Positions 9,541 to 10,632 of a DNA stretch of 11,569 nucleotides are shown piece by piece. Where the stretch lies: NCBI GenBank assembly GCA_020217265.1, contig JAIWOS010000094.1, positions 1-11,569 on the forward strand, given 5' to 3'. This DNA is from Thiobacillus sp. Lineage in GTDB: Bacteria; Pseudomonadota; Gammaproteobacteria; Burkholderiales; Thiobacillaceae. The first letter of the stretch is position 1, and each line of letters starts with the position of its first letter. The translations under genes and the position numbers were made by a program. The notes under the pieces were generated by a model, which saw nothing but the letters and a program-made list of their open reading frames with translations, did no database searches and had not been told where the DNA came from.

Positions 9541-9553
9541 CTGCCATTGGCAG
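9541..9553. promoter_or_regulatory. Inverted repeat, possible distal enhancer element
   Basis: CTGCC and GGCAG flank ATT in CTGCCATTGGCAG, just after the symporter stop. No T-tract follows, so it is not a terminator. Its centre lies about 136 bases upstream of the predicted sigma-54 start, within the usual enhancer range. Functional role is inference. Confidence 0.35.
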
Positions 9554-9567
9554 CGTCGGAATAATTT

Positions 9568-9579
9568 ACAGTGCACTGT
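9568..9579. promoter_or_regulatory. Perfect 12-base palindrome, candidate activator (enhancer) site
   Basis: ACAGTGCACTGT is identical to its own reverse complement. Its centre is about 110 bases upstream of the predicted sigma-54 start, where NtrC-type activators usually bind. A dimeric regulator is the natural reader; PrsR is a candidate by known association with PEP-CTERM genes, not by a site I can match. Confidence 0.5.
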
Positions 9580-9613
9580 GTCATTCCTCTCGCCAACCTC
9601 CGCGATATTCGGT

Positions 9614-9626
9614 TAACACATTGTTA
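9614..9626 (-). promoter_or_regulatory. IHF-like binding site
   Basis: On the minus strand TAACAATGTGTTA matches the IHF consensus WATCAANNNNTTR at every fixed position but one (A for T at the third base). AT-rich DNA (TATAAAA) adjoins it. It lies between the palindromes and the sigma-54 promoter, centred near -63, where IHF usually bends DNA so that the activator reaches the polymerase. Confidence 0.5.
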
Positions 9627-9656
9627 TAAAAGCCTCTTCTCACCCTCCACCTAGAC

Positions 9657-9672
9657 TGGCACAAACGATGCT
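9657..9672 (+). promoter_or_regulatory. Sigma-54 (RpoN) -24/-12 promoter of the second PEP-CTERM gene
   Basis: TGGCACAAACGATGCT matches the sigma-54 consensus TGGCACG-N4-TTGCW: full TGGCAC, the invariant GG and GC at exactly the right spacing, and only small differences elsewhere. Transcription would start near 9683, giving a leader of about 100 bases. Sigma-54 promoters need an ATP-driven enhancer-binding activator. PEP-CTERM systems commonly carry one (PrsR, partner of kinase PrsK), and RpoN/PrsR control of a PEP-CTERM gene has been reported in floc-forming betaproteobacteria. Confidence 0.82.
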
Positions 9673-9785
9673 TTGTTAATGGTAACTGAGCACGCCTGAA
9701 ATTTCCGAGGGTGTTTATTCAGTGAATTGGGACGGATAACTTCCTCAGTCTTCATTAAACAGACCTTCAACCAAGGAGCCACATT

Positions 9786-10583
9786 ATGAAAAAAACCGCA
9801 CTGGCCAGCGCCCTGTTTGCCACGGCCCTGTTCGCCGCGGCTAACGCCAGCGCTGCCCCCGTCATCGTCAACACTGCGCTTTCCAACATCGGCTCGGCGT
9901 TTGACAACATCATCACTGGCACGGGCACGACCGTTTCCACTGCGATAGTCACCGACGGACAAAGCACTTACAACTACATTGACAAGAATGGCAACCCAGC
10001 GACCGTGACGGTCACCCGCCCCAATGGCAACCCGGTCACTCCGAACGGCGGTTACTCTGACAACGGCATCTCGCTGAGCGGCAGCGTTTGGAACATCGGT
10101 CCCTTCGCATCTGGCTCTGACCCTATCCCTGGCTTCAATTCCGGTCTGACTTTCACGTTCAGTTCCCCGGTTAATGCTTTCGGTTTTGAAATTGGCGACT
10201 GGGCTACCTGCTGCACTAGCACCGTGCGTGACCCCAACGTCGTTTCCACCTATGGCGTGCCCGCACAAGGGAGTGGCTTGTGGATCGCCTTCGACGGTGG
10301 GGCGGCCACCCTGCCTGCCAACGCACTGAGTTCGAACGACAACCCCGGCGTTGTCGCCTCGGGTAGTTTCACCAACTTCATCGGCGCGATCGACTCGTCG
10401 GGCTTCTTCTCCAAGGTCACCTTCTTCGGCGACGGCTTTGGCGAATTCCTGGTGGCCGGCGGCACCTTGCGCTTCGCTTCGGTGCCGCGTGGCTCCGTGG
10501 GCGTACCCGAACCCGCCTCGCTCGCCCTGCTGGGTATCGGTGCGCTGGGTCTGGCCGCGATGCGTCGCCGCAAGACCGCCTGA
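9786..10583 (+). CDS. PEP-CTERM sorting domain protein, secreted, sigma-54 controlled
   Basis: Exported protein of 265 residues. The signal peptide MKKTALASALFATALFAA is followed by likely cleavage near ASA (residues 21-23). The C-terminal PEP-CTERM signal is classic: VPEPASLALLGIGALGLAA from residue 240, then MRRRKTA. It should be processed by an exosortase and sent to the cell surface or matrix. The middle is rich in Asn, Thr, Ser, Gly and Phe, with no catalytic motif I know; a CC pair lies in GDWATCCTST and the phrase LWIAFDGG recalls other PEP-CTERM proteins of unknown function. AAGGAG at 9773-9778, seven bases before the ATG, fixes the start. Its base composition and upstream DNA are visibly richer in A/T than the neighbouring genes, which may reflect expression level or separate origin. 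It stands alone, between a sigma-54 control region and a strong terminator. Confidence 0.92.
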   Translation: MKKTALASALFATALFAAANASAAPVIVNTALSNIGSAFDNIITGTGTTVSTAIVTDGQSTYNYIDKNGNPATVTVTRPNGNPVTPNGGYSDNGISLSGSVWNIGPFASGSDPIPGFNSGLTFTFSSPVNAFGFEIGDWATCCTSTVRDPNVVSTYGVPAQGSGLWIAFDGGAATLPANALSSNDNPGVVASGSFTNFIGAIDSSGFFSKVTFFGDGFGEFLVAGGTLRFASVPRGSVGVPEPASLALLGIGALGLAAMRRRKTA

Positions 10584-10597
10584 TCCAGGCACGCAAC

Positions 10598-10632
10598 AAC
10601 AAAAACGGCGACCTCGGGTCGCCGTTTTTGTT
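10598..10632. terminator. Strong bidirectional intrinsic terminator
   Basis: A perfect stem of 16 base pairs with a TCG loop: its core, CGGCGACC/GGTCGCCG, is flanked by five A on the left and five T on the right, extended by CAA/TTG pairing. Because it has a T-tract on both strands it can stop transcription of the PEP-CTERM gene from the left and of the APS kinase gene from the right. Confidence 0.95.

Follow-up and report, generated by a model that had tools for sequence, protein, structure and literature searches.

The closest described relative of the locus reported here is the PEP-CTERM box, a conserved sequence that Haft et al. described in 2006 upstream of 99 of 167 proteobacterial PEP-CTERM genes (PMC1569441). 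Its first motif, 17 bases long, has TTTACA at its end; a spacer with a mean length of 62.8 bases (S.D. 10.6, range 32-92) separates it from a second 17-base motif, of the -24/-12 type, which lies on average 71 bases (S.D. 38.5) from the start codon. The distribution of the box was matched by the same authors to that of PrsK, PrsR and PrsT (PMC1569441). In this class of promoter, sigma-54 polymerase rests in a closed state at -24/-12 until it is contacted by an activator bound upstream, and at some sigma-54 promoters IHF bends the intervening DNA (PMC4740811, PMC7962754). The pepA promoter of Aquincola tertiaricarbonis RN12 (TGGCAC/CTGCTT) has been mapped by primer extension and depends on RpoN1, and an Aquincola epsB2 mutant was restored by epsB2 and not by prsK or prsK-prsR, for which the authors want further experiments (PMC9850573). 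Because of this pattern of restoration, control by PrsR is unproven elsewhere too. The switch was thus described in 2006, and in the cited literature both the part played by PrsR and the place where the activator binds remain predictions.

Here we examine an 11,569-nucleotide stretch of DNA from a Thiobacillus sp. genome (hereafter the window; the genome spans 2.14 Mb in 231 contigs), and in particular the region in front of one of its PEP-CTERM genes. With a probability of roughly 0.87, we read positions 9554-9673 as a three-part enhancer-dependent sigma-54 promoter composed of a PrsR site, an IHF bend and a helically phased promoter, where the two binders, the bending and the dependence of expression on them are predicted from the DNA.

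A PEP-CTERM box upstream of a Thiobacillus gene

The features of the locus are collected in Table 1. The gene, which begins with an ATG at 9786, encodes a PEP-CTERM protein by two profiles (TIGR02595, 27.5 bits against a cut-off of 16; PF07589, 29.5 against 20.7), and a homologue search gave Thiobacillus thioparus and other Betaproteobacteria as the best named relatives of its product. By score the product is not the flocculation protein PepA (NF033554), because its 27 bits fall below the 80-bit cut-off. The gene is flanked by one for a sodium/solute symporter, which shares its strand, and one for an ATP-sulfurylase/APS-kinase, which runs the opposite way, and because of these flanking genes and the 13-bp hairpin with T's behind it the PEP-CTERM gene looks monocistronic. 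An Rfam search of the window returned no structured RNA match. The initial annotation had taken the gene for a lone PEP-CTERM gene, a description that fails on two counts: the window holds a second one (1505-2596), and the genome has 27 PEP-CTERM matches, 22 of them over the family cut-off. No box lies upstream of 1505-2596, which may mean that the PEP-CTERM genes of a single genome are controlled in two ways.

Table 1. Features of the PEP-CTERM box, its gene and the adjoining repeats (positions in the window)
Feature	Position	Strand	Remarks
Inverted repeat 1, CTGCCATTGGCAG	9541..9553	.	Present; not conserved (1/35 orthologs); outside the module
Motif 1 of the PEP-CTERM box, CGTCGGAATAATTTACA (common form TGTCG-N6-TTTACA); predicted PrsR site	9554..9570	+	10 of 11 fixed positions
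Inverted repeat 2, ACAGTGCACTGT	9568..9579	.	Overlaps the 3' end of motif 1; not conserved (0/35 orthologs)
Spacer, 86 bp, 85-86 helical class	9571..9656	+	Measured from box end to promoter
IHF-like site, TAACACATTGTTA, consensus on minus strand, 8/9	9614..9626	-	43 bp before TGGCAC, 43 bp after motif 1
Motif 2, sigma-54 -24/-12 promoter, TGGCACAAACGATGCTT	9657..9673	+	GG-N10-GC
Predicted transcription start	9683	+	About 12 bases past the -12 GC, from the usual sigma-54 spacing
Ribosome-binding site, AAGGAG	9773..9778	+	From sequence
PEP-CTERM protein gene, 265 aa	9786..10583	+	Profile matches; signal-peptide-like start; sorting signal at residues 240-263 (10503-10574)
Likely terminator	10601..10629	+	Perfect 13-bp stem, 3-base loop, T's at end; read from sequence; terminator scan did not list it

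Upstream of the gene we found the elements by which Haft et al. recognized the box in 2006, namely a motif 1 ending in TTTACA, a spacer within 32-92 bases, a GG/GC motif 2 and a PEP-CTERM gene downstream. Motif 1 departs from the common form in that a C replaces the first T; motif 2 stands 112 bases before the ATG, and from the predicted start the leader measures about 103 bases, in line with the leader of about 100 bases given by the initial annotation. By its motifs, then, 9554-9673 is a new copy of a PEP-CTERM box of the kind already described, and probably acts as a switch that activates the gene of a secreted matrix-type protein.

The -24/-12 promoter that had been proposed at 9657-9672 (TGGCACAAACGATGCT) was found at that place. 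It had been written as TGGCAC-N8-GC, which is one base too long (the actual form is TGGCAC-N7-GC), and a search with the pattern as written would miss the window's own site. A pattern of the longer kind (GG-N11-GC, that is N8 with T before GC and one mismatch allowed), which does not have the window's spacing, gave 640 matches against 1012 when read backwards. With the spacing corrected, the enrichment test suggested at the outset was borne out: TGGCAC-N6-TGC occurs at three sites in the 350-bp upstream regions of 25 PEP-CTERM genes (the 27 matches minus two cut by contig ends), against 0.07 expected (P 6e-5), the three being those of the window and of contigs C53 and C145. Without the window's own site there remain two sites in 24 PEP-CTERM genes (P 0.002). 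Over the whole genome the pattern has 36 matches against 29 read backwards, which is chance level; the promoter pattern alone therefore has little meaning by itself, and it was rejected as a regulon finder in this genome. The genome encodes RpoN (TIGR02395, 468 bits; cut-off 277). The sigma-54 matrix used in promoter scans was written by hand.

Conservation places the promoter within a larger unit. In the first three aligned relatives, with spacers of 84-86, the core TGGCAC/ATGCTTT is identical, and the invariant columns of the alignment are GTCG, TTTACA, the TA and TTG of the IHF-like site, TGGCAC, ATGCTTT and scattered others. Our wider ortholog set comprised 35 of 39 loci, four that matched only by their C-terminal tail being excluded. 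A search with the spacer left free between 20 and 130 recovered box and promoter together in 33 of the 35, among which one module (L366) scores below 17 of 21 and another (L367, spacer 123) is weak. In the control regions the same search found the module in 1/35 reverse-complement, 2/35 within-gene and 1/35 downstream sequences, and in 15 of 700 shuffled sequences. The -24/-12 bases, whose lack of conservation in orthologous upstream regions would by the initial annotation's own criterion have spoken against it, are thus conserved, and both this and the enrichment support its promoter call.

Regulators and regulon in the host genome

On contig 212 a gene for a PEP-CTERM glycosyltransferase (TIGR03013, EpsB_2) comes first, then prsK (913 bits) and prsR (770 bits) in tandem, both over curated cut-offs, and then prsT, which also exceeds its curated cut-off and is cut by the contig end; an exosortase is encoded in the genome as well (153 bits). 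PrsK/PrsR had been named as the likely regulator before, which agrees with this arrangement and with the box being the one that Haft et al. tied to PrsR in 2006.

The genome has 12 exact copies of the common form of motif 1, TGTCG-N6-TTTACA, and 28 copies when up to one mismatch is permitted, as opposed to 8 occurrences of the reversed pattern at the same tolerance. Ten of the 12 exact boxes precede PEP-CTERM genes, two being second copies and one belonging to a gene that the family search missed; boxes with one mismatch precede the window gene and a gene on contig 45, which brings the box-bearing PEP-CTERM genes to 11. The suggestion that the window gene is a main output of a matrix programme accordingly gives way to a more modest place as one of these 11. 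Of the 27 PEP-CTERM matches, 26 have a start and at least part of their upstream region; in 10 of these 26 box and promoter are present (one weak), and in the other 16, one of which is truncated at a contig end, no such module was found within 350 bp. The gene overlooked by the family search lies on contig 17 (L324, box at 1092) and encodes a PEP-CTERM-like protein ending in VPEADNYALFLAGLGIIGYLARRRHLRT, which TIGR02595 at E 1 missed and the box found.

Of the remaining two exact boxes, one lies before the gene of a small secreted-type protein on contig 221, which had no Pfam match, and the other before an open frame on contig 152. The secreted-type protein (L334:569-1138) has 189 residues and no PEP-CTERM, and its box is followed at 74 bp by a weaker promoter that was picked by eye. 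In other genomes, boxes precede proteins that by eye resemble it in build (L168, L178, L221), and perhaps such secreted proteins form a branch of the regulon outside PEP-CTERM. On contig 152 (L330:1501-1517, minus strand), a promoter-like site lies 42 bp from the exact box, in phase with the spacing classes set out below, before a membrane-protein-like frame. In two genomes of the genus (L265, L269) a membrane-type protein of 56 residues (MPLGMLT...) stands behind a box, and a 51-residue frame from another genus (L247) is similar to it by eye. At eight further loci (L222, L225, L226, L227, L229, L230, L234, L239) a box precedes proteins with VPVPAAAWLLGSGLLGL-type tails, which are variants of the sorting signal; tails of this type behind boxes occur in two genera (G046; G261, G291 and G032).

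Module geometry is kept in whole helical turns

To the first of two samples, 399 genomes of the same order, we applied strict forms of the two motifs and let the spacer vary from 41 to 101; relaxed forms were confined to the host genome, its first relatives and the 35 orthologs. Matches were found in 76 of the 399 genomes, and the backwards pattern gave none among the matches listed. The analysis covers 150 listed sites of 165 matches (a total counted by hand), from 67 genomes and 34 genera, the remaining 15 matches lying in 9 genomes beyond the listing. Together with 59 sites from outside the order, these modules have spacers almost only near 41, 52, 63, 74, 85 and 97 bp, a series that we refer to as the comb; in both samples the unit counted is the site, and sites need not be independent events.

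Of the 150 listed spacers, 127 lie within 2 bp of the comb and 4 lie beyond 3.5 bp, with 42-49, 66-71, 78-80 and 89-93 empty and two sites at 55-60. A Rayleigh test on these sites gave R 0.746 at a best period of 11.3, a value matched by none of 5000 jittered sets, and the slope over the spacing classes was 11.22 bp (95% 10.93-11.49, genera resampled). The sample from outside the order (42 genomes) repeated the pattern, with R 0.81 (0 of 10000 jittered sets), a best period of 11.1, a slope of 11.0, 52 of 59 sites within 2 bp and none beyond 3.5. Long spacers of 102-162 are rare, with 8 matches in the 399 genomes versus the 165 at 41-101, and 3 of those 8 miss the comb by more than 3.5 bp. An ad hoc and crude rule assigned a PEP-CTERM end to 103 of the frames behind the 150 sites and none to 41 (13 of which have variant, VPVPA-like tails by eye), while 4 frames run off the stretch and 2 sites are frameless; the sites before the 41 frames are phased as well (R 0.81).

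In the host genome the first ten spacers were 54, 63, 64, 65, 74, 75, 86, 86, 97 and 99 (P 0.0002); three more (42, 74 and 95), of which the 74 was chosen by eye, joined after the comb was known, making a set of 13. The 33 ortholog modules of the window gene fall at 50 (one), 61-65 (17), 74-75 (three), 82-85 (six), 94-98 (five) and 123 (one, weak), again in phase (R 0.77, 0 of 5000), with 28 of 33 within 2 bp of the comb and the other five off by more than 2 bp, two of them (82 and 123) by more than 3.5. Because these orthologs of a single gene sit in several spacing classes, their sequences indicate that its promoter has jumped between classes, whole turns having been gained or lost.

An IHF-like site locked in position

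The window's spacer divides as 43 + 43 = 86 bp around the start of an IHF-like site. The site had been pointed out at 9614-9626 by the initial annotation, and it is present there, matching the consensus at 8 of 9 positions; its distance of 43 is seen again in other modules. IHF-assisted sigma-54 promoters such as nifH and glnHp2 likewise have the bending site between activator site and promoter. Our consensus, with nine scored positions, was written by hand. Sites with 8-9 matches were found in 107 of the 150 listed spacers, whereas dinucleotide shuffles gave 33.8 (maximum 42) and the reversed consensus gave 18. Their positions cluster: minus-orientation sites start 31-33 bp before TGGCA in 42 of 75 cases and 42-45 bp before it in 15 of 75 (shuffles 1.0 and 1.3), and plus-orientation sites start at 18-20 in 24 of 67 and at 29-32 in 19 of 67. 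Base frequencies anchored on the promoter, with no selection for matches, peak at -30/-31 and at -19 to -21. In the 40 of the 59 sites outside the order that were tested, longest spacers first, 18 spacers had an IHF-like site (shuffles 7.4, maximum 11). An IHF-like site is therefore position-locked over many modules, where it would be bound by IHF, and whole turns are kept in the IHF-to-promoter part of the module as in the entire spacer, so that the parts stay on fixed faces of the helix.

Among the relatives of the window gene, two (L068, L069) have the site with 8/9 at 43 and one (L067) with 7/9; 23 of the 33 ortholog modules have it at 8-9 of 9, in varying register.

Proposed mechanism and alternatives

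In the three-part promoter that we favour, phosphorylated PrsR would occupy motif 1 at 9554-9570 and IHF would occupy 9614-9626 and bend the DNA, such that the AAA+ domain of PrsR may contact sigma-54 polymerase at 9657-9673 and bring about promoter opening. The output would be a monocistronic transcript from about 9683, and activation would answer PrsK. Because the sites must face each other, insertions and deletions would be tolerated mainly as whole helical turns.

The alternative that fares best is a variant overlapping this explanation, in which the spacer element is not bound by IHF and is instead an AT-rich bendable tract or an HU site, the phasing arising from the PrsR-polymerase contact alone. 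No clear IHF consensus at 8/9 is found in 43 of the 150 listed modules and in 10 of 33 ortholog modules, and a second class of sigma-54 enhancers has no IHF sites, some of its members having a conserved AT-rich sequence (PMC4740811). Three of the closest orthologs (L352, L353, L355; 79% identity) are among those ten and reach only 7/9 at best, because of which we give the variant more weight and hold IHF to be less certain at the window gene than over the whole set. But the enrichment concerns the 13-base consensus itself and not AT content alone, with perfect 9/9 matches in 37 listed modules where dinucleotide shuffles give 2.6 and the reversed consensus 1, and the site is locked at 31-33 or 42-45, outside the order too (9 of 12 minus-orientation matches at 31-33 bp in the 40 of 59 sites tested). 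We regard the variant as unlikely, though worth keeping in view.

Binding of the activator elsewhere is a much poorer prospect. The initial annotation had offered two inverted repeats (9541-9553, 9568-9579) as activator sites, in which case the sigma-54 promoter would be the same and the TTTACA box incidental. Palindromes are typical for activators and both repeats do exist where they were reported, motif 1 lying between and overlapping them; inverted repeats of all kinds in this stretch number 9 overlapping counts versus 2.3 +- 2.4 in shuffles. However, the two repeats recur in 1/35 and 0/35 orthologs as against 33/35 for motif 1 plus promoter, and the invariant alignment columns fall in GTCG and TTTACA, so that the conserved site is 9554-9570, which the initial annotation had overlooked, and a role for the repeats as activator sites is very improbable.

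Even less probable is descent of the spacing classes from a few founder promoters with no stereospecific need. Related genomes do have promoters in common, and our counted units are sites, but one random site per genus (34 genera) keeps R at 0.77, with a minimum of 0.65 in 300 draws versus at most 0.62 in 3000 jittered draws; the 59 sites outside the order give an identical comb, and the orthologs of one gene are themselves spread over five classes (50, 61-65, 74-75, 82-85, 94-98). Least probable of all is that the hexamers are promoter-like by chance and a sigma-70 promoter drives the gene, for despite the chance-level frequency of TGGCAC-N6-TGC genome-wide, a simple scan finds no sigma-70-like site and the module is conserved in orthologs.

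Comparison with known systems

Taken beyond this locus, our data make it likely that PEP-CTERM boxes across the Proteobacteria are rigid three-part loops of PrsR site, IHF site and sigma-54 promoter, both segments being quantised in turns of about 11.2 bp. As a naturally occurring collection of spacings, they would keep a record of the helical repeat that DNA has in living environmental bacteria, and the comb would separate true regulon members, including genes without PEP-CTERM, from chance matches. It offers a sharp and cheap test, in that a spacer lengthened by 5-6 bp should kill activity and one lengthened by 11 bp should not; a stricter rule for finding PrsR regulons, meaning the proteins with which bacteria of wastewater and sediment build matrix and flocs; and, for the study of short DNA loops, a data set supplied by nature.

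The module has been known since 2006, and the helical spacing rule seems to be new. A keyword search of the open-access literature, judged mostly from titles, gave no report of helical phasing or of IHF at PEP-CTERM promoters, and neither "PEP-CTERM" nor "helical" occurs in the text of a 2025 survey of sigma-54 regulons; PEP-CTERM, integration host factor and promoter are mentioned together in two Geobacter papers. The available text of Haft et al. likewise has no mention of IHF, and has "helical" only within the title of a reference (PMC1569441). The boxes described there and the one in the window share a large intergenic region, a single PEP-CTERM gene, and prsK/prsR/prsT and an exosortase in the genome, and the mean spacer of 62.8 fits the commonest class found here (63), provided that the start of motif 2 is defined alike (PMC1569441). 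The Aquincola pepA promoter resembles that of the window in preceding a PEP-CTERM gene and in having a -24 TGGCAC and a predicted upstream enhancer (PMC9850573); for pepA, RpoN dependence has been shown and the start mapped, and the product of the window gene is not PepA by score.

The nearest precedent for the spacing itself is found in the Vibrio qrr enhancers, where the activator is LuxO and the loop lengths of 61 natural enhancers cluster about 11 bp apart (PMC4740811). An NtrC-type activator, a sigma-54 promoter and phasing of about 11 bp are common to both systems, whereas qrr has another activator and other genes, with loops of about 80-120 bp in one genus (PMC4740811). The PEP-CTERM boxes, in contrast, have loops of 41-100 bp, come from 34 genera within the order and from others beyond it, and have a phased IHF-like site. 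Their step of about 11.2 bp is close to the in vivo helical repeats fitted for lac loops (11.08 and 11.60 bp in wild-type E. coli, 10.95 bp without HU; PMC1762422).
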